From Acidobacteriota bacterium (GTDB lineage Bacteria; Acidobacteriota; Vicinamibacteria; Vicinamibacterales; CAVVIG01): DNA of 50,521 bases. The stretch is from contig QHWJ01000383.1 of assembly GCA_003222535.1 (NCBI GenBank), forward strand, positions 1 to 50,521. Direction: 5' to 3'. Shown here piece after piece: positions 10,467 through 33,222 of the stretch; within the stretch, counting starts at the first letter, position 1; each line of letters opens with the position of its first letter. The notes under the pieces were generated by a model, which ran no database searches, had not been told where the DNA came from, and saw only the letters and a list, made by a program, of their open reading frames with translations. The translations under genes and the position numbers were made by a program.

Positions 10467-11225
10467 ATGGCTCTTGCACGCGCCGGCCTCGAATCGCTCC
10501 TTCGCGCCCGCCAGCTCGATCGCACGTTGACGACGGCGCTGCCCGAGATCGATCCACGGGATGAATCCGCCCTCGCGCCGTCCGGCATTACCGCCTTAGA
10601 CGCGCGGCTCGGCGGGGGGTTTCCCAGGGGGCAGTTGTCCGAGCTCGTCGGTTTGCGGTCGTCGGGGCGCACCAGCCTTCAGCTGCAGATGCTGGCCGCC
10701 GCCACCGCGCGAGGCGAGATCGCCGCCATTGTCGATGCGCTCGACATGCTCGACGTCGCGTCAGCGGCGTCCGCCGGCGTCGATCTCGAGCGGCTGCTGT
10801 GGATCCGCGGTCACGTCGTTTCGAATCCCGGGATGTGCCGGGATCTCAACCAGCGCGCGCTCGAGCAGGCGATTCGTGCGCTGACGCTCGTCCTCCAGGC
10901 CGGCAATTTCGGTCTCGTCGTCTTCGACGCCGCCGAGGCGCCGGCCGACGCGGTGCGCCGGCTGCCGTTCACGACGTGGCTGCGGCTGCAGCGCATCATC
11001 GAAGGCAGCCCGACGGCGTGCGTGCTCGTGGGCACCGAGCCGATGGCGAGGAGCTCGGCGGGGCTCACGCTGAAATTAGGAAGTGGAAACGTGGAATGTG
11101 GCGCTCGTTTTCAGGGCCGGTTGTTCGACGGCCTTGATGTGCAGGCGCGTGTGGTTCGAGCCCGTGCGCGTGAGAAAGAGGAGGCGACCGCGATATTCAG
11201 CACGGTCGCATCGGACTGTGCCTAG
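10467..11225 (+). CDS. imuA: ImuA, RecA-like mutasome protein
   Basis: RecA-fold protein of 252 residues. A Walker-A-like loop GLRSSGRTSLQL (about residues 62-73) follows GITALDARLGGGFPRGQLSEL, the usual ImuA opening. The loop has Arg in place of the catalytic Lys. Later segments (IAAIVDALDMLD; GNFGLVVFDAAEAPADAVRRLPFTTWLRLQRIIEGSPTACVLVGTEP) match the Walker-B and core strands. In known ImuA-ImuB-DnaE2 systems ImuA supports damage-induced mutagenesis with the other two proteins. ATG start at 10467. The gene heads the operon behind a good promoter and a candidate SOS operator. Its 3' end overlaps the likely imuB start by eight bases. Confidence 0.85.
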   Translation: MALARAGLESLLRARQLDRTLTTALPEIDPRDESALAPSGITALDARLGGGFPRGQLSELVGLRSSGRTSLQLQMLAAATARGEIAAIVDALDMLDVASAASAGVDLERLLWIRGHVVSNPGMCRDLNQRALEQAIRALTLVLQAGNFGLVVFDAAEAPADAVRRLPFTTWLRLQRIIEGSPTACVLVGTEPMARSSAGLTLKLGSGNVECGARFQGRLFDGLDVQARVVRARAREKEEATAIFSTVASDCA

Positions 11226-12987
11226 CCCCCGGCCCCCAGTCCCCAGCCCCCTGTACGCGTGCATCTATCGCCCCCCTGAGCCTGAATGTAGGGCGACCCT
11301 TTCAGGGTCGCCAAACCTTTCAGGGTCGCCGGGTGGCGAGTCTGAAAGGCTCGCCCTCCATGCGATCGCCCAGGAGTTCTCGCCGCGCTACGAACGGCAC
11401 CGCGACGATCTCGTGTCGATCGACGTCAGCGGGCTGGCGCGGCTGGTCGGTCCGGCGCGGGCCATCGGCGAGGAGCTCGGCCGCGAAGCGGCCGCGCGCG
11501 GCGTCCGCGCGCACGTCGCCGTTGCCGGCACGCGCATGGCGGCGCTCGTCCTCGCGCTCGCACGTCCGGGGCTGACCGTTATCCCGCGCGGTGAAGAGGC
11601 GGCAGCGCTCGCAATGATTCCCATCGGCATCCTCGAAAAAATCCACGATGACGATCGAGCGCGGAGCTCGCATCCTTCGACAGGCTCAGGACGAGCGCTC
11701 ATGGTGAGCGTGTCGAACCATGCGGTCTTTGCGTTCAAAAGGTGGGGACTGAAGACGCTGGGAGAACTGGCGGCACTGCCGGCTGCCGATCTCGTGTCGC
11801 GGCTCGGCCGGCCGGCGACGATGTGGCAGGCGATCGCGCGCGGCGAGGACATCCGGCCGCTCGTGCCGACGCTGGCCGAGGAACGCTTCGAGTCGTCGCT
11901 CGAGCTGGAGTGGCCGATCGAGGACCTCGAGCCGCTATCGTTCGTCCTCACGCGGCTGCTCGAGCCGCTGGCGACGCGCCTCGAGCGCCGCGATCGCGGC
12001 GCTGCGGTGCTGCACGTCCTGCTGGGCCTCGTGACACATCCTTCGACACGCTCAGGACGAGGTGAGGCCGTCGAACCACGCGAGACCTGCGTGCGGCGTC
12101 TGGAGCTGCCGTCGCCAGTGCGTGACGTGCGCACGCTGCGGACGCTCGCGCTCCTCGACCTGGAGTCGCATCCGCCGGCCGCCGCCGTCGAGTGCGTCAC
12201 CATCGTCATCGATCCGACGCCGGGCCGGGTGCTGCAGCACCGGCTGTTCACGCGCGCGCACCCGACACCGGAACAGCTCTCGACGCTCGTCGCGCGGCTC
12301 GGCGCGCTGATGGGGTCCGATCGCTTCGGCGCGCCGGCGACGGTCGATTCGTTTCGGCCCGGCGCGTTCGCGATGACGCCATTTGCCACCGACCACGACA
12401 AGACGGGTGAACGCAAAGCGTGTGAGCTCATGGTTCGACAAGCTCACCATGAGCGACGGGGTCAGCAAGCTCACCACGAGCGACCGCTCATCCTGAGCCT
12501 GTCGAAGGATGAGCCTTTTGCGGTTAAACGTGGTGAGCCCCCAGTCCCCAGTCCCCAGCCCCGTCTTGTGTCTGCCCTGCGCCGCTGCCGCCAGCCCGTC
12601 CCCGCGCGCGTGGCGGTCGCCGATGGCCGCCCGGTGCGCGTCACCACCGATCGTCGCGGCTTCACCGGCGGAACAGTCGTGCGGTCCGCGGGGCCGTGGC
12701 GCACCTCCGGGAACTGGTGGTCGGGTGGGTCGGATAGGTCAAGTGGGTCGGGCAGGTTGGGTGAGTCGGGTGGGTCGGGAGAGTCGGGCAGGAGGTCGGG
12801 TAGTACAGGTGAGTCAGGTGGGGAAAGCTCGGTGTCCTCAACCCACCAGGCCCACCTGACCCACGCGACCCACCTGACCTCGTGGGACCGCGACGAGTGG
12901 GACGTGGCGCTCGGCGACGGCGCGGTCTATCGGATTTTTTACGAACGCGATACCGATCGCTGGTTCATCGATGCCATCGTGGATTGA
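11218..12987 (+). CDS. imuB: ImuB, Y-family polymerase-like mutasome adaptor
   Basis: The Y-family core is clear: LYACIYRP at the N terminus, LVSIDVSGLARLVGPARAIGEEL (palm), FKRWGLKTLGELAALPAADLVSRLG (helix-hairpin-helix) and the little-finger-like SLELEWPIEDLEPLSFVLTRLLEP. The C-terminal part ends in WDVALGDGAVYRIFYERD. ImuB links ImuA, DnaE2 and the beta clamp and is usually catalytically inactive. I place the start at GTG 11218, overlapping imuA; the native ATG before YACIY appears replaced by CTG next to a C-rich repeat. The gene is interrupted, always in frame, by at least seven repeat insertions: 11226-11252, 11286-11360, 11671-11722, 12037-12082, 12429-12512, 12538-12563 and 12716-12879. 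Confidence 0.85.
   Translation: MPSPRPPVPSPLYACIYRPPEPECRATLSGSPNLSGSPGGESERLALHAIAQEFSPRYERHRDDLVSIDVSGLARLVGPARAIGEELGREAAARGVRAHVAVAGTRMAALVLALARPGLTVIPRGEEAAALAMIPIGILEKIHDDDRARSSHPSTGSGRALMVSVSNHAVFAFKRWGLKTLGELAALPAADLVSRLGRPATMWQAIARGEDIRPLVPTLAEERFESSLELEWPIEDLEPLSFVLTRLLEPLATRLERRDRGAAVLHVLLGLVTHPSTRSGRGEAVEPRETCVRRLELPSPVRDVRTLRTLALLDLESHPPAAAVECVTIVIDPTPGRVLQHRLFTRAHPTPEQLSTLVARLGALMGSDRFGAPATVDSFRPGAFAMTPFATDHDKTGERKACELMVRQAHHERRGQQAHHERPLILSLSKDEPFAVKRGEPPVPSPQPRLVSALRRCRQPVPARVAVADGRPVRVTTDRRGFTGGTVVRSAGPWRTSGNWWSGGSDRSSGSGRLGESGGSGESGRRSGSTGESGGESSVSSTHQAHLTHATHLTSWDRDEWDVALGDGAVYRIFYERDTDRWFIDAIVD
11226..11252. repeat. CCCCAGT-type heptamer run at the imuB start
   Basis: C-rich run containing CCCCAGT and CCCCAGC units. 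It spans the imuA-imuB junction and encodes the odd PSPRPPVPSP start of ImuB. Similar runs occur at 12538-12563 and 16711-16728. Confidence 0.65.
11286..11360. repeat. Palindromic repeat inserted in imuB
   Basis: Contains a perfect hairpin, arms 11292-11300 (GGCGACCCT) and 11304-11312 (AGGGTCGCC), loop TTC, followed by a partial copy and a GAGTCTGAAAGGCTCGCCCT end. The same hairpin recurs at 16204-16224 in dnaE2 and 18604-18624 between genes. Confidence 0.8.
11671..11722. repeat. CATCCTTCGACA-type dispersed repeat in imuB, copy 1
   Basis: Begins CATCCTTCGACAGGCTCAGG and ends near TGTCGAACCATG. Translated in frame as HPSTGSGRALMVSVSNH. The same family occurs at 12037-12082, 12429-12512 and 34066-34117. 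Confidence 0.75.
12037..12082. repeat. CATCCTTCGACA-type dispersed repeat in imuB, copy 2
   Basis: Starts CATCCTTCGACACGCTCAGG and ends with GTCGAACCACG. Read in frame as HPSTRSGRGEAVEPRE inside the ImuB little-finger region. Confidence 0.75.
12429..12512. repeat. CATCCTTCGACA-type dispersed repeat in imuB, copy 3 (inverted)
   Basis: Reverse-oriented longer copy: TGGTTCGACAAGCTCACC at one end, TGAGCCTGTCGAAGGATG at the other. It encodes MVRQAHHERRGQQAHHERP and LILSLSKDEP, a peptide type I associate with this dispersed repeat. Confidence 0.75.
12538..12563. repeat. CCCCAGT heptamer run in imuB
   Basis: Tandem CCCCAGT units read as EPPVPSPQP. Same word as at 11226-11252. Confidence 0.65.
12716..12879. 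repeat. Nine-base tandem-word hairpin inside imuB
   Basis: The left arm is a run of 9-base words of the type GTGGGTCGG (12719 to about 12821). After a short turn the right arm carries complementary words such as CCCACCTGA (12841-12878). Because 9 is a multiple of 3 it stays in frame and encodes a Gly/Ser-rich stretch (SGGSDRSSGSGRLGESGGSG) then HQAHLTHATHLT. Confidence 0.8.
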
Positions 12988-13005
12988 CCAACCATCGTGG
13001 ATTGA
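12974..13005 (+). repeat. 18-base-period duplication over the imuB stop codon
   Basis: CCATCGTGGATTGA occurs at 12974-12987, where it holds the imuB stop, and again at 12992-13005. It looks like a recent tandem duplication and leaves the dinB-like SD (AAGGAGG) intact. Confidence 0.7.
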
Positions 13006-13021
13006 AGAAGGAGGGGACGAG

Positions 13022-13522
13022 ATGACGATCGCCGATCTGTTGCTGCCCGAAGTCGATCAGGAAATGGCCATCACCCGTCGCGTGCTGGAGCGTGTGCCGG
13101 ACGACAGGCTGGGATGGAAGCCGCACGACCGATCGTGGTCGATGGGCGATCTCGCGAGCCACATCGTCAACATGATCAAGTGGACCGATGTGACGATGAA
13201 CCAGACGGAATTCGACATGGCGACCGTGTCGCCCGAGCAGATGAACCAGGCGGCGACCTCACGCGCGCAGCTGCTGGAATGGTTCGACGCGAACGCCGCC
13301 GCGGCGCGTCAGGCGCTCGCCAAAAACGACGCCGACTACTTCGTGCCGTGGACGCTGAAGCAGGGCGACAAGGTGTACTTCACGATGCCCCGCTACACGT
13401 GCGTGCGCAGCTTTTGTGTGAACCACATCGTGCATCACCGCGCGCAGTTGACCGTCTACCTGCGCCTCAACAACATCCCCGTGCCCTCCATCTATGGTCC
13501 GTCGGCGGACGAAGGCATGTAG
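13022..13522 (+). CDS. DinB-family (YfiT/DinB four-helix) protein in the mutasome operon
   Basis: About 166 residues. I choose the ATG at 13022 because a strong SD (AAGGAGGGGA) precedes it, over an upstream in-frame ATG at 12971 inside imuB. The DinB-like four-helix bundle is supported by the metal-ligand His pattern: WSMGDLASHIVNMIKW (first His) and VNHIVHHRAQLTVYLRLNNIPVPSIYG (His pair before the C-terminal helix). Members often use thiol cofactors such as bacillithiol or mycothiol, or have unknown roles; Bacillus dinB is damage-inducible, which fits a place between imuB and dnaE2. It is unrelated to DNA polymerase IV, which is also called DinB. Confidence 0.8.
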   Translation: MTIADLLLPEVDQEMAITRRVLERVPDDRLGWKPHDRSWSMGDLASHIVNMIKWTDVTMNQTEFDMATVSPEQMNQAATSRAQLLEWFDANAAAARQALAKNDADYFVPWTLKQGDKVYFTMPRYTCVRSFCVNHIVHHRAQLTVYLRLNNIPVPSIYGPSADEGM

Positions 13523-13657
13523 CAACTGCCAACTCTCAACGCTCAACTCTCAATTCTGACGTCTCGACACTGAACGCTGAGACGTGAGCGTTGAGACGTG
13601 AGCGTTGAGACGTGAGCGTTGAGACGCTGAGCATTGAGCGTTGAAAGTTGAGCGTTG
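13523..13657. repeat. Seven-base tandem-word hairpin upstream of dnaE2
   Basis: Left arm of heptamers CAACTCT, CAACGCT, CAACTCT, CAATTCT; right arm alternating GAGACGT and GAGCGTT, then GAAAGTT and GAGCGTT. The arms are reverse complements in outline (CAACGCT versus AGCGTTG). The element fills the whole dinB-dnaE2 gap and runs into the dnaE2 start codon, leaving no room for a normal SD. Confidence 0.85.
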
Positions 13658-16600
13658 ATGTACGTCGAATTGCACGCAGCGTCAGCGTTCAGCTTTCTGC
13701 AGGGGGCGTCGCTCCCCGAAGCGCTCGTCGAACGGGCGGCCGAGCTCCGCTACTCCGCCGTCGCGCTCCTCGATCGCGACGGTGTCTACGGCGCGCCGCG
13801 ATTTCACAAGGCGGCGCTCCACGCCGGGCTTCGTCCGATCGTCGGCGCGGAGCTGACCGTCGCGAATTCAGAATTCGGAATTCAGAATTCAGAATTCGTC
13901 CTCCCTGTCCTCTGCGAAAGCGCGGACGGGTACCGGAATCTCTGCCGGCTGATCACGCGCATGAAAATGCGCGCGCCGAAAGGCGAAGGTGCGCTGACGC
14001 TGGAGGAGCTCGAGGGCGCCACCGCCGGGCTCGTGGCGCTGGCCGGGCGCGCGGCGCTCGATGGCCGGCGGCACGGCGTCGGCGGCCTGCTCGATCGCCT
14101 CGTGGGCGTGTTCGGCCGCGCCCGCGTGTACGTCGAGCTGCAGCGTCATTTCCGCCGCGACGAAGAGCGCGACAACGAAGCGCTCGTCAGCCTGGCGGCG
14201 TCATTCCGTGTGCCGACGATCGCGACCAACGGCGTCCGGTTCGCGACGCCGGCCGGGCGGCCGCTCTTCGATGTCCTCACCTGCATCCACCGTCACACCG
14301 ATCTGGTCGCCGGGGGCCGGCGGCTCGCCCCGAACGCCGAGCGGTATCTCAAGCCGCCCGCCGAGATGGCGGCGCTGTTCCGCGATCGCCTCGACGCGGT
14401 CGCGCGCACGCGCGAGCTCGCCGATCGCCTGCAGTACACGATGGCCGATCTCGGCTACCGCTTTCCGGACTATCCGGTGCCGCCCGGCGACACGCAGATC
14501 TCGTTCCTGCGCGGCATCACCGATGTCGGCGCGCGCGAGCGGTACCGGCCGTACCACGACCGCGCCCGTGCGCAGATCGCGCGCGAGCTGGATCTCATCG
14601 AGAAGTTGCAGCTCGCCGGCTACTTCCTCATCGTCTGGGACATCGTCAATTTCTGCCGGCAGCACGACATCCTCGTGCAGGGACGCGGGTCGGCCGCCAA
14701 CAGCGCCGTCTGCTACAGCCTCGGCATCACGGCCGTCGATCCGGTCGGGATGGATCTGCTGTTCGAGCGGTTTCTGTCGGAGGAGCGCGGCGAGTGGCCC
14801 GACATCGATCTCGATCTGCCGAGCGGCGACCGGCGCGAGCGGGTCATCCAGCATGTCTACGAAAAATACGGGCGCCTCGGCGCGGCGATGACGGCCAACG
14901 TCATCACGTATCGCGGGCGCAGCGCGGCGCGCGAGGTGGGGAAGGTGCTCGGCTTCGATCCGGTGCAGGTCGATCGGCTGGCCAGGGTGATGAACAACTT
15001 CGAGTTCGTCGATCCGGGCGATTCGCTGCCGCGCCAGATGTCGGCGGTCGGCCTCGATCCGCAGTCGGATCGCGTCCGCCTGTTCGCGCGCCTCTGGGGC
15101 GAGATGCAGGACCTGCCGCGGCATCTGGGGCAGCATTCGGGCGGGATGGTGATCTGTCAGGGGCAGCTCGACGCCGTGGTGCCGCTCGAAAACGCCAGCA
15201 TGCCGGGCCGCGTCGTCGTCCAGTGGGACAAGGACGACTGCGCCGACATGGGGATTGTGAAAGTCGATCTGCTCGGGCTGGGCATGATGGCGGTTCTGCA
15301 GGATGCCATTGCACTCGTGAATGGTGACGCCGCAAGTCTCAAGTCTGAAGTGGGAACTCTGGCACGCTCAGACTTCAACCTTCAGACTTCAGACTTGTCC
15401 CGACGTCCCGTCCTCGATCTCGCCCATCTGCCGCAGGACGATCCGGCCGTCTACAAGATGCTCTGCGACGCCGACACGATCGGTGTCTTCCAGGTGGAGT
15501 CGCGCGCGCAGATGGCGACGCTGCCGCGCCTCAAGCCGAAGGCGTTCTACGACATCGTCGTGCAGGTGGCAATCATCCGGCCCGGACCGATCGTGGGGCA
15601 GATGGTCCATCCCTATTTGAATCGCCGGGCCGGGCGCGAAGAGGTCCGCTACGCGCATCCGTCGCTCGAGCCGATTCTCGCGCGGACGCTCGGCGTCCCG
15701 CTGTTCCAGGAGCAACTCCTGCGGATCGCGATGGTCGCCGCCGGCTTCACCGGCGGGCAGGCGGAAGACCTGCGCCGCGCGATGGGCTTCAAGCGATCCG
15801 AGAAGCGGATGAAGCAGATCGAGGTGGCTCTGCGCGAGGGGATGGCTCGCAACGGCATCACCGGCGACGCGGCGCAGCAGATCATCACATCGATCGCGTC
15901 GTTCGCGCTGTACGGCTTCCCCGAGTCGCACGCGGCGAGCTTCGCGCTGCTCGCCTACGCGAGCGCGTACCTCAAGGCGCATTTCCCGGCGGCGTTCTAC
16001 ACGGCGCTGCTGAACAACCAGCCGATGGGGTTCTATCACCCGTCGACGCTCGTGAAGGACGCGCAGCGCCGCGGCGTGCGCTTTCATCCGATCGACGTCC
16101 AGATCTCGGACTGGAACTGCACCGTCGAAGCCGACGGCGCGATCCGCCTCGGCCTGCGCTACGTGCACGGACTGCGCGAGCAGGCCGGCCGCGCGATCTG
16201 TAGGGCGACCCTTTCAGGGTTGCCGGGTAGCGCGAAGGCTTCAGCCGGGCGCCATGTAGGGCACCGCTTTAGCGGTGCCGATCACGGTACTGACGCGGAC
16301 CGCTGCCCGAAATGCGGGTGTGATGACGCGTCGATGCTCGAGCGCGTGGACGACCGGCGCTGGTTCTGCAACAACTGCTCGCACGACTGGAGCCGCTCGC
16401 CTCAAAGGCTCGCGCTCCAGCAGCAGCGCGAAGGCGAACGATTCAAGTCGCTCGACGATCTCGTCGCCCGCGCGGGCCTGCGGCGCGACGAGGTGGTCAC
16501 GCTCGCCGACGTCGGCGCGCTCAACGCGTTCGGCTACGATCGCCGCTCCGCATTGTGGCAGGCCGAGCGCGCGATTCGCCCGTCAGGCGAGCTGTTTGAA

Positions 16601-17158
16601 AAAGCAGCCGCAGAGGACGCAGGGCTCGCAGAGATCTTTTATGAAAACGAATCCTCCGCGCTCTCAGCGGACTCCGCGGTTGAACGTGACACGCAGGGAA
16701 AGGCAGGAGGGGCGGTCCCCAGTCCCTGTCCATTGAAACCAATGACCGAGGCCGAACGCCTGGTCGCCGACTATGCGGGCATGGGTCTGACCGCCGGCCG
16801 CCACCCCATGGCGCTGCGGCGTGACGAACTGGCCATGCGCGGCATCCTGCGGGCGAGCGACCTCCACAGCGCGCGGCAGGGACGGCGCGTTCGAGTGGCC
16901 GGCATGGTCATCACGCGCCAGCGCCCCGGTACCGCCAAAGGCTTCGTGTTCCTCACGCTCGAGGACGAAACCGGGATCGCGAACATCATCGTGCGGCCGG
17001 ATCTTTTCGCGCGGGATCGTCTCATCATCGTCGGGGAGCCGTTTCTGATCGTGGATGGCGTGCTGCAGAACCAGGACGGCGTCACGTCGGTGCGCGCCGA
17101 GCAGGTCCACGGCATGCGCGGCGTCGATGTCGACTTCGACGCCCACGATTTCTATTAG
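13658..17158 (+). CDS. dnaE2: Error-prone DNA polymerase III alpha subunit DnaE2
   Basis: C-family polymerase of about 1166 residues; family members are usually nearer 1030-1090. ATG at 13658 begins MYVELHAASAFSFLQGAS, the PHP-domain opening. The palm acidic motif EWPDIDLDLPSG is near residue 380, with LVQGRGSAANSAVCYSLGI and LGQHSGGMVICQG before and after. A fingers-domain segment is RRAMGFKRSEKRMKQIEVAL. The C-terminal OB fold (VRVAGMVITRQRPGTAKGFVFLTLEDETG) is complete. It is the polymerase of the ImuA-ImuB-DnaE2 mutasome, doing error-prone lesion bypass. The extra length is in-frame repeats at 13864-13898, 15333-15396, 16198-16425 (with a zinc ribbon), 16607-16681 and 16711-16728. Confidence 0.92.
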   Translation: MYVELHAASAFSFLQGASLPEALVERAAELRYSAVALLDRDGVYGAPRFHKAALHAGLRPIVGAELTVANSEFGIQNSEFVLPVLCESADGYRNLCRLITRMKMRAPKGEGALTLEELEGATAGLVALAGRAALDGRRHGVGGLLDRLVGVFGRARVYVELQRHFRRDEERDNEALVSLAASFRVPTIATNGVRFATPAGRPLFDVLTCIHRHTDLVAGGRRLAPNAERYLKPPAEMAALFRDRLDAVARTRELADRLQYTMADLGYRFPDYPVPPGDTQISFLRGITDVGARERYRPYHDRARAQIARELDLIEKLQLAGYFLIVWDIVNFCRQHDILVQGRGSAANSAVCYSLGITAVDPVGMDLLFERFLSEERGEWPDIDLDLPSGDRRERVIQHVYEKYGRLGAAMTANVITYRGRSAAREVGKVLGFDPVQVDRLARVMNNFEFVDPGDSLPRQMSAVGLDPQSDRVRLFARLWGEMQDLPRHLGQHSGGMVICQGQLDAVVPLENASMPGRVVVQWDKDDCADMGIVKVDLLGLGMMAVLQDAIALVNGDAASLKSEVGTLARSDFNLQTSDLSRRPVLDLAHLPQDDPAVYKMLCDADTIGVFQVESRAQMATLPRLKPKAFYDIVVQVAIIRPGPIVGQMVHPYLNRRAGREEVRYAHPSLEPILARTLGVPLFQEQLLRIAMVAAGFTGGQAEDLRRAMGFKRSEKRMKQIEVALREGMARNGITGDAAQQIITSIASFALYGFPESHAASFALLAYASAYLKAHFPAAFYTALLNNQPMGFYHPSTLVKDAQRRGVRFHPIDVQISDWNCTVEADGAIRLGLRYVHGLREQAGRAICRATLSGLPGSAKASAGRHVGHRFSGADHGTDADRCPKCGCDDASMLERVDDRRWFCNNCSHDWSRSPQRLALQQQREGERFKSLDDLVARAGLRRDEVVTLADVGALNAFGYDRRSALWQAERAIRPSGELFEKAAAEDAGLAEIFYENESSALSADSAVERDTQGKAGGAVPSPCPLKPMTEAERLVADYAGMGLTAGRHPMALRRDELAMRGILRASDLHSARQGRRVRVAGMVITRQRPGTAKGFVFLTLEDETGIANIIVRPDLFARDRLIIVGEPFLIVDGVLQNQDGVTSVRAEQVHGMRGVDVDFDAHDFY
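13864..13898. repeat. Five tandem GAATTC[A/G] heptamers in dnaE2
   Basis: Five exact consecutive heptamers GAATTCA/GAATTCG. The word contains the self-complementary GAATTC, so it is its own inverted arm. It encodes NSEFGIQNSEF inside the PHP domain. Confidence 0.9.
15333..15396. repeat. Seven-base tandem-word hairpin in dnaE2
   Basis: CAAGTCT, CAAGTCT, GAAGTGG, GAACTCT, spacer, then CAGACTT, CAACCTT, CAGACTT, CAGACTT. The right-arm words are the complement of AAGTCTG. Translated in frame as SLKSEVGTLARSDFNLQTSD. The same word family makes the intergenic element at 26351-26424. Confidence 0.9.
16198..16425. repeat. Composite palindrome insertion carrying a zinc-ribbon segment in dnaE2
   Basis: Left part: a degenerate copy of the 9-base-arm hairpin (16204-16224), an AGCGCGAAGGCTTCAGCC unit (16229-16251) and a perfect hairpin with arms 16260-16268 and 16271-16279. 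The middle encodes RCPKCGCDDASM and WFCNNCSHDW, a CxxC...CxxC zinc-ribbon pattern. The right part, CTCGCCTCAAAGGCTCGCGC, resembles the end of the 11286-11360 element. The block separates GLREQAGRAI from FKSLDDLVARAGL, which are close together in ordinary DnaE2. Confidence 0.7.
16607..16681. repeat. Nine-base tandem-word hairpin in dnaE2
   Basis: Left arm GCCGCAGAG, GACGCAGGG, CTCGCAGAG (16607-16633); right arm TCCGCGCTC, TCAGCGGAC, TCCGCGGTT (16655-16681). In frame it reads AAAEDAGLAEIFYENESSALS, inserted after the segment SGELFEKA. Confidence 0.8.
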
Positions 17159-26337: not shown

Positions 26338-26350
26338 GACACGGGGAAAA

Positions 26351-26424
26351 TCTGAAGTCTGAAGTTTGAAGTCTGAAGTCTGGACGTCGCCCGCTTCAAA
26401 CTTCAAACTTCAGACTTCAGATTT
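26351..26424. repeat. Seven-base tandem-word hairpin after the TonB receptor
   Basis: TCTGAAG, TCTGAAG, TTTGAAG, TCTGAAG on the left; CTTCAAA, CTTCAAA, CTTCAGA, CTTCAGA on the right. Arms are nearly perfect complements. The same word is found inside dnaE2 at 15333-15396. The rest of the gap to 26582 shows nothing else. Confidence 0.9.
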
Positions 26425-33087: not shown

Positions 33088-33116
33088 GAGTGACTCCTTG
33101 AGAGAGCGTCATTCTA

Positions 33117-33209
33117 TCGGGTAATCGGGTAATCGAGTAATCGGGTAATTGCATTGCTCGATTGCCCAATCCAATTGCCCAATCCAATTACCCGATTACC
33201 CGATTACCA
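33117..33209. repeat. Eight-base tandem-word hairpin upstream of the RidA gene
   Basis: TCGGGTAA, TCGGGTAA, TCGAGTAA, TCGGGTAA on the left; ATTACCCG, ATTACCCG, ATTACCAG on the right, with AATCCAATTGCCC words in the middle. Here the unit is eight bases, and the arms are complementary. Confidence 0.85.
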
Positions 33210-33222
33210 GATGCAGGAATCC

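Follow-up and report, generated by a model that had tools for sequence, protein, structure and literature searches.

Proteins of the ImuA-ImuB-DnaE2 mutasome are used only under DNA damage, and the locus studied here raises the question of why two of its genes, imuB and dnaE2, are interrupted again and again by repeated DNA that leaves their reading frames intact. The locus lies in a 50,521-nucleotide stretch of DNA from an Acidobacteriota bacterium (hereafter the window, meaning the whole stretch analysed), which makes up contig 139 of a draft genome assembly of 8.06 Mb and 450 contigs. A first reading of the sequence (the original prediction) had counted seven repeat blocks in imuB and five in dnaE2, from at least four families, and had offered two alternatives: either these proteins tolerate linkers unusually well, or mutasome activity and repeat gain are linked. 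Here, we report that the load really is concentrated on imuB and dnaE2, that relatives are filled at the same few sites with unrelated sequences, and that the replicative polymerase DnaE1 is largely spared of insertions.

Repeat load on imuB and dnaE2

We identified seven blocks in imuB, one of them at the upstream junction, and three clear and two weak blocks in dnaE2 (Table 1), so the predicted numbers stand provided that the junction array is counted along with both weak dnaE2 blocks. Every intragenic block is in frame, and both frames are open as had been stated, without a stop or frameshift: the imuB open frame runs from 11083 to 12987, with the conserved N-terminus at CTG 11251, and that of dnaE2 is open throughout. 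When the k-mers were restricted to those supported outside the window, four imuB and three dnaE2 blocks were retained, and the blocks at 12037-12061, 12724-12880 and 13864-13897 missed this threshold. Two outcomes had been set beforehand as speaking against the prediction. One, that the inserted residues are conserved domain sequence in relatives, was sought and not found; the other, that insertions are equally frequent in most genes, was examined by a census.

The census sample comprised 1,101,389 bases in 81 pieces, about 14% of the genome, with 807 genes from a simple codon-usage caller. Under a strict repeat mask, defined by a Markov-expectation filter, repeats covered 6.6% of noncoding vs 0.42% of coding bases, and 702 of the 807 called genes were without any block, indicating that insertions are far from evenly spread over genes. 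imuB ranked first with six blocks, and dnaE2 was joint second with four, together with a gene for a sulfatase-tetratricopeptide repeat (TPR) protein; the imuB count stops at six because its gene call starts at 11413 and leaves out the block at 11287-11357. Tested against a negative binomial model fitted to all remaining genes, imuB had a P value of 4e-5 and dnaE2 one of 0.013. Excluding blocks closer than 45 nt to a gene end left these ranks unchanged. A looser first mask, under which GC-rich codon-driven words were counted as repeats, was dropped; it too placed imuB first, with dnaE2 among three genes of seven blocks.

Two relatives, which carry partly different repeats, agreed with this ranking. 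dnaE2 came first in G014 (400 kb, 301 genes; eight blocks, P 2e-4), where imuB had three blocks (P 0.012) and imuA two (P 0.02), and it was also first in G007 (385 kb, 277 genes; three blocks, P 0.023). The imuB region of G007 holds five blocks and stands outside the rank list because the gene finder did not call it. Both relatives were picked after the DnaE2 alignments had been seen and are non-blind replicates; the census P values are descriptive, since the window was chosen for the feature and the relatives after alignment.

We then compared genes within loci, using 47 of the 80 loci collected (L153-L198 and L201), three of which were dropped as they had no other called genes. In 41 of the remaining 44, repeats covered a larger fraction of imuB plus dnaE2 than of the locus's other genes. 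Pooled cover was 5.3% for dnaE2 and 7.5% for imuB, compared with 2.8% for other genes and 7.4% for noncoding DNA.

Families were scanned for the genes with at least two blocks, namely all 20 others in the window genome, eight of ten in G014 and two of three in G007. Repair genes among them were Mfd and UvrA in the window genome and RecJ and an SMC/RecN-type gene in G014, with none in G007; these are plain counts, and no enrichment is claimed. UvrA matches were often split at query residues ~170-320, and this alignment pattern suggests that UvrA may have a variable region there as well. The sulfatase-TPR proteins at L138:16304-18565 (four blocks) and L121:7635-9677 (three) were among the most loaded genes of the sample.

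Repeat families and their genomic copies

The blocks of imuB and dnaE2 come from at least six families, not the four given as a minimum in the original prediction. Two are palindromic and resemble repetitive extragenic palindromes (REPs), one of the two bearing a GTAG tag, and the other four are arrays of short units. REP-A is a palindrome with the core GAGCYTGTCGAA; the GTAG-tagged hairpins are REP-B, REP-C and a third at 16256-16279; and the arrays have heptad units CCCCAGT, GAATTCA and AAGTCTG or, in imuB, 9-nt units (GGTGGGTCG-like) with an inverted arm. Exact matches of five cores were counted in the whole genome against reversed-sequence controls, matches within arrays being able to overlap, and the GAATTCA and 9-nt arrays lay outside this set. 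We found 219 matches of GAGCYTGTCGAA (control 16), 59 of CGACCCTTTCAGGG (0), 108 of GCGAAGGCTTCAGCCG (0), 120 of CCCCAGTCCCCAG, from the CCCCAGT array (1), and 194 of TTCAGACTTCAGACTT, from the AAGTCTG hairpin block, whose control is uninformative because the pattern equals its own reverse. The five counted cores thus belong to real genomic repeat families. Arrays of AATTCAG occurred three times in the 1.10-Mb sample.

GTAG was present within 6 nt upstream in seven of nine sample copies of REP-B, as in the GTAG REP superfamily. For REP-C it was found in 4 of 15 copies, the remainder having mostly GGAG-like ends. None of 12 copies of CATCCTTCGACAGGCTC was tagged, and REP-A is for this reason kept out of the superfamily. 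One Y1_Tnp match in the genome (G000:C216:39994-40323) is a candidate REP-associated tyrosine transposase (RAYT); the Y1_Tnp family takes in IS200-type enzymes too.

Arrays in the sample had periods of 7 (115), 8 (40) and 14 (45), with 94 distinct units among the 200, and the rate masked by Tandem Repeats Finder was ~14 times higher in noncoding than in coding DNA, so that tandem heptads are mostly noncoding. Examples in the window lie at 13523-13654, 26348-26424 and 33116-33212. Twenty of the 200 arrays formed inverted pairs within 200 nt, and the 5' arm was the G-richer in 19 of these 20. This polarity is constant across differing units, which suggests that the inverted heptad-type pairs were formed by a common route. 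Within called genes, 17 copies of family cores were read in many combinations of orientation and phase.

Fixed insertion sites and the sparing of DnaE1

Alignment A1, of DnaE2, drew on 60 of the 80 loci and alignment A2 on 45 of these; sites were surveyed over 61 DnaE2 sequences. Four strongly variable sites were found, at window residues ~74-81 (I), 561-585 (II), 851-923 (III) and 989-1020 (IV), with lengths of 0-67, 0-58, 0-105 and 0-96 residues, respectively. Unrelated sequences fill one and the same site in different relatives, and site content is lineage-specific. Among the first 38 rows, just one lacks any residue at site I, two at site II and two at site IV. The distant rows (L202 onward, by title other Acidobacteriota and Verrucomicrobia) had 0-1 residue at sites I-III, site III having none, with the exception of L223, which has 23 residues at site I; site IV was often filled in these rows. 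Several distant Verrucomicrobia bear repeats at site IV, and its filling therefore spans more than one phylum. Aligned ImuB orthologues have comparable variable sites.

Repeat cover of sites and core was compared with a within-locus mask at k=14. In rows 1-35, 15-23% of the sites was covered vs 2.7% of the core, and the sites exceeded the core in 27 of the 35 rows. A mask at k=12 was dropped as too noisy (window sites 0.379 vs core 0.375).

DnaE1 served as a matched control. Its median of non-core residues was 27.5 (20 loci), compared with 70 for DnaE2 and 97 for ImuB, and in like context repeat cover was 1.1% for DnaE1 vs 4.8% for DnaE2 (20 loci each), indicating that DnaE1 is largely spared.

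Intact cores, loop placement and turnover

Mean core identity between the window and 17 relatives was 77.7% for DnaE2, 75.9% for DnaE1 and 63.5% for ImuB (15 of the 17). Core ratios of nonsynonymous to synonymous substitution rates (dN/dS) lay at 0.14-0.20 in three DnaE2 pairs and at ~0.26 in two ImuB pairs, and both cores are under purifying selection.

In the AlphaFold structure model of DnaE2 (mean predicted local distance difference test score, pLDDT, 83; predicted template modelling score, pTM, 0.81), pLDDT fell below 50 at residues 450-452, 560-583, 645-649, 855-879, 917-926, 983-985 and 987-1020. Sites II-IV, extended by three residues on each side, hold 93 of the 104 residues below 50, and at site I the mean over residues 71-80 was 67. 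The ImuB model fell below 50 at 327-335, 382-387, 404-437 and 492-542, of which 404-437 overlaps the REP-A triple at 12424-12514 and 492-542 overlaps the array at 12724-12880. Three other ImuB blocks have ten-residue stretches averaging 62-75, together with better-ordered residues. This pattern in both models indicates that the blocks are housed mostly in low-confidence loops.

Turnover was visible in one close pair, L170 and L174, which yields no rate. At a core synonymous divergence (dS) of 0.056, the two agree fully or almost fully at sites II and IV and in the zinc-ribbon part of site III, and two of their four DnaE2 sites have been rewritten, site I throughout and site III in its first part. 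At site I both members keep the heptad hairpin layout with a unit that differs in the two arms alike, as though each arm served to correct the other or the array had been replaced.

Local tolerance as the favoured explanation

Of the two alternatives offered by the original prediction, linker tolerance is favoured by the low-confidence loops, the mixed frames and the purifying selection on the cores. We consider it likely that insertion of genomic repeats is widespread and that, within genes, repeats persist in frame only where a permissive loop of a working but dispensable protein receives them. Across the genome, short repeats of palindromic and heptad type are abundant and, to judge from their copy number, spread and turn over; they would enter genes and intergenic DNA alike, and selection would purge nearly all coding insertions. 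An arbitrary in-frame peptide would be tolerated at disordered surface loops or domain linkers of conserved, mostly dispensable proteins. DnaE2 would have four such positions and ImuB about six, an unusually large number, so that sites may fill, empty and refill with each lineage's own repeats. Beyond the observed high load, shared sites, lineage-specific content, loop placement, selected intact core and sparing of DnaE1, insertion would be near neutral, and dispensability would account for the contrast with DnaE1.

Several points weigh against this explanation. Local repeat content of the flanks and total insert length were weakly and not significantly correlated across 37 loci (rho 0.26, P 0.12). 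The sites did not exceed the core in 8 of the 35 closer rows (seven lower, one repeat-free), and among the 26 more distant rows they did so in just 9. The DnaE2 core is not relaxed, and tolerance must therefore be local. Neutral tolerance alone also leaves the recurrence of DNA repair genes among the loaded genes unexplained, and Di Nocera et al. 2013 (PMC3733652) state that repair-type genes are sometimes the sole REP-tagged ones.

Alternative explanations

The DNA repair genes lead to another possibility, which we regard as unlikely: repeat gain may be tied to the DNA-damage state, with single-strand or template-switch events during the SOS response hitting imuB, dnaE2 and repair genes, or variable linkers may be selected to tune the mutation rate. 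Further repair genes are indeed among the loaded ones, a similar mutator effect was proposed by Di Nocera et al. 2013 (PMC3733652), and inverted heptad arrays would suit template-switch products. However, the sulfatase-TPR gene, with four blocks and no role in repair, is as loaded as dnaE2, and imuA and the DinB-like gene are block-free in the window. A shared damage box sought upstream of imuA yielded weak dyads, the best in 8 of 43 regions compared with a shuffled maximum of 5. A causal tie of mutasome activity to repeat gain is so far unsupported; the sulfatase-TPR proteins, Mfd and a UvrA of the same genome carry several blocks too.

A more specific form, in which the mutasome writes its own variation, seems rather improbable. 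Arrays would grow and be rewritten by template switching in error-prone synthesis, imuB and dnaE2 being hit most as they are in use; if so, lineages would gain fast-changing polymerase linkers, which may alter mutation rate or spectrum.

We give little weight to the inserts being functional themselves, as RNA hairpins that tune translation or as binding peptides. Many inserts are palindromic or have inverted arms, and the rarity of empty sites I, II and IV in the first 38 rows would fit such a role, but unrelated sequences stand at the same site in different relatives, and the mixed frames of the 17 core copies argue against a selected peptide.

A regional insertion hot spot at the imu locus is very unlikely. 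Intergenic repeats do flank the genes (13523-13654), but other genes of the same loci have about half the density or less, and insertions recur at the same few positions across lineages; this explanation is disfavoured because neighbouring genes are cleaner, and we regard it as largely refuted. Decaying pseudogenes gathering junk are a still more remote prospect: the ImuB family scores are weak and no ordinary start codon follows the imuA stop, but the frames are open, dN/dS is far below 1, and DnaE2 scores 1224.9 bits to an error-prone polymerase model with conservation equal to that of DnaE1. An assembly or binning artefact, which a 450-contig draft might invite, is hardly credible: alignment with 20 relatives shows variable inserts at shared sites, the frame is kept throughout, and in the one-contig genomes G029 and G041 the DnaE2 frames, 1240 and 1415 aa from stop to stop, have stop-free matches.

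The locus and its genes

An imuA-type gene, imuB, a DinB-superfamily gene and dnaE2 lie in the same direction on the + strand (Table 1), and the placement of imuB between imuA and dnaE2 fits the mutasome order imuA-imuB-dnaE2. With k-mers supported outside the window, no repeat block was found inside imuA of the window or in the DinB-like gene. The IMS and IMS_C scores of the window's ImuB were under cut-off, and IMS_C was above it in the orthologue L162. Foldseek searches of the ImuB model against the PDB returned Y-family folds with E values down to 1.8e-14 and low TM-scores of about 0.2-0.4, and the matches of the DnaE2 model were Pol III alpha structures. Downstream of the imuA stop, no ATG, GTG or TTG precedes the conserved ImuB N-terminus (11223-11251), leaving CTG 11251 or an in-frame start within imuA.

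The zinc-ribbon-like segment of site III recurs in the DnaE2 of closer relatives, and in the window it has repeats on either side. The nearest DnaE2 relatives are mostly metagenome-assembled Acidobacteriota records, several labelled Vicinamibacterales or Luteitalea. Three records (L159, L160 and L176) are titled Bifidobacterium breve or Acidimicrobiia; their DnaE2 is 66-74% identical (best segment) to that of the window, and these organism names look wrong.

Table 1. Genes and repeat features of the imu locus (window coordinates)
Position	Strand	Feature	Evidence
10467-11225	+	imuA-type RecA-like gene	PF00154 E 2e-14; ImuA model NF033429 E 1.9e-13, under its cut-off
11224-11251	+	CCCCAGT heptad array at imuA/imuB junction, possibly untranslated	CCCCAGTCCCCAG genome count
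11251-12987	+	imuB, Y-family-like mutasome protein with repeat-interrupted core	Aligned orthologues; weak IMS and IMS_C matches, sub-cut-off
11287-11357	+	GTAG-tagged REP-B, two units and a variant, translated ATLSGSPNLSGSPGGE	CGACCCTTTCAGGG genome count; supported outside window
11657-11727	+	REP-A pair, translated HPSTGSGR...MVSVSNHAV	GAGCYTGTCGAA genome count; supported outside window
12037-12061	+	Lone REP-A unit, translated HPSTRSGR	96% to reference copy (family D18)
12424-12514	+	REP-A triple, translated MVRQAHHE / QQAHHE / LSLSKDE	GAGCYTGTCGAA genome count; supported outside window
12539-12562	+	CCCCAGT heptad array, translated PPVPSPQP	CCCCAGTCCCCAG genome count; supported outside window
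12724-12880	+	Array of 9-nt units (GGTGGGTCG-like), inverted second arm from ~12839	Sequence comparison; model
12971-13522	+	DinB-superfamily (four-helix) gene between imuB and dnaE2	PF05163 E 1.1e-13
13523-13654		Intergenic heptad hairpin immediately 5' of dnaE2	Repeat comparison and mask
13655-17158	+	dnaE2, error-prone C-family polymerase	NF004225 1224.9 bits (cut-off 939); PF07733, PF17657, PF02811
13864-13897	+	Site I (PHP domain): GAATTCA heptad array, translated NSEFGIQNSEF	Mask, alignment
15333-15402	+	Site II: AAGTCTG heptad hairpin	TTCAGACTTCAGACTT genome count
16199-16279	+	Site III, first half: three GTAG-tagged hairpins in tandem (16200-16224, 16227-16251, 16256-16279)	CGACCCTTTCAGGG and GCGAAGGCTTCAGCCG genome counts, exclusive of the third hairpin (16256-16279)
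16304-16390	+	Zinc-ribbon-like CPKCG...CNNCSHDW segment within site III; clade feature, non-repeat	Alignment
16404-16418	+	Site III, second half: weak block, a short REP remnant	Mask
~16617-16735	+	Site IV: weak block of partial CCCCAGT with degenerate repeat-like sequence, unflagged by k-mer mask	Alignment

Relation to known systems and meaning

A close precedent is that of Di Nocera et al. 2013 (PMC3733652), whose accessible text describes intragenic GTAG/CGTC REPs, many in replication and repair genes with DnaE2 named, and suggests loop tolerance and, speculatively, mutator effects; repeat-tagged repair genes and the mutator idea were thus already published. The case described here is like theirs in having short in-frame palindromes within genes, DnaE2 included, with a GTAG tag on REP-B. 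It differs, as far as that text goes, in that several families occur together, including heptad arrays and an untagged palindrome, and that ImuB is affected, a gene whose name imuB is absent from the main text of the 2013 paper. Insertion sites there differ except for one recB pair, whereas here they are common to relatives of one order, and a genome ranking is given. The additions beyond that text are ImuB, shared sites with turnover and the ranking.

The parallel with Rickettsia palindromic elements drawn in the original prediction is apt as a working analogy. These elements of ~150 bp are the classic in-frame case (PMC10969869), and both involve palindromic DNA within conserved functional genes with the frame kept. 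Compared by description rather than by sequence, the blocks here are ~15-160 nt, of several kinds and in mixed frames.

The heptad arrays recall the heptameric repeats of Nostoc and Xanthomonas (cyanobacterial short tandemly repeated repetitive sequences, STRR), which the accessible part of Rehm et al. 2015 (PMC4692102) gives under the heading GGGGA(C/T)T as under-represented in coding regions. Ours are likewise 7-nt units found mainly in noncoding DNA, and CCCCAGT fits GGGGA(C/T)T on the other strand. Unlike what that text describes, 94 units occur among 200 arrays, some of them inverted pairs and some intragenic.

By sequence, the locus resembles the ImuA-ImuB-DnaE2 mutasome in gene order and, with weak Y-family scores for ImuB, in families, with DnaE2 above the curated cut-off; it differs in the repeat-derived loops that lengthen the proteins, the DinB-superfamily gene between imuB and dnaE2, and the extra zinc-ribbon-like segment of DnaE2. 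Such inserts are unmentioned in the available text of reviews on DnaE and Y-family proteins (PMC3919608, PMC6511836). At the level of its listings, a literature search for DnaE2/ImuB repeats in Acidobacteria or intragenic REPs gave no further report, with subscription journals thinly covered.

Overall, what is seen here is a known phenomenon in a strong form that spans an order, and not a new kind. It turns the 2013 remark on REPs favouring repair genes into a measured pattern with DnaE1 as matched control. It also cautions that automatic annotation of ImuB and DnaE2 takes in repeat-derived peptide. For the biology of these bacteria, it provides a natural set of insertion-tolerant DnaE2 and ImuB sites, which is usable to ask whether mutasome linkers matter.

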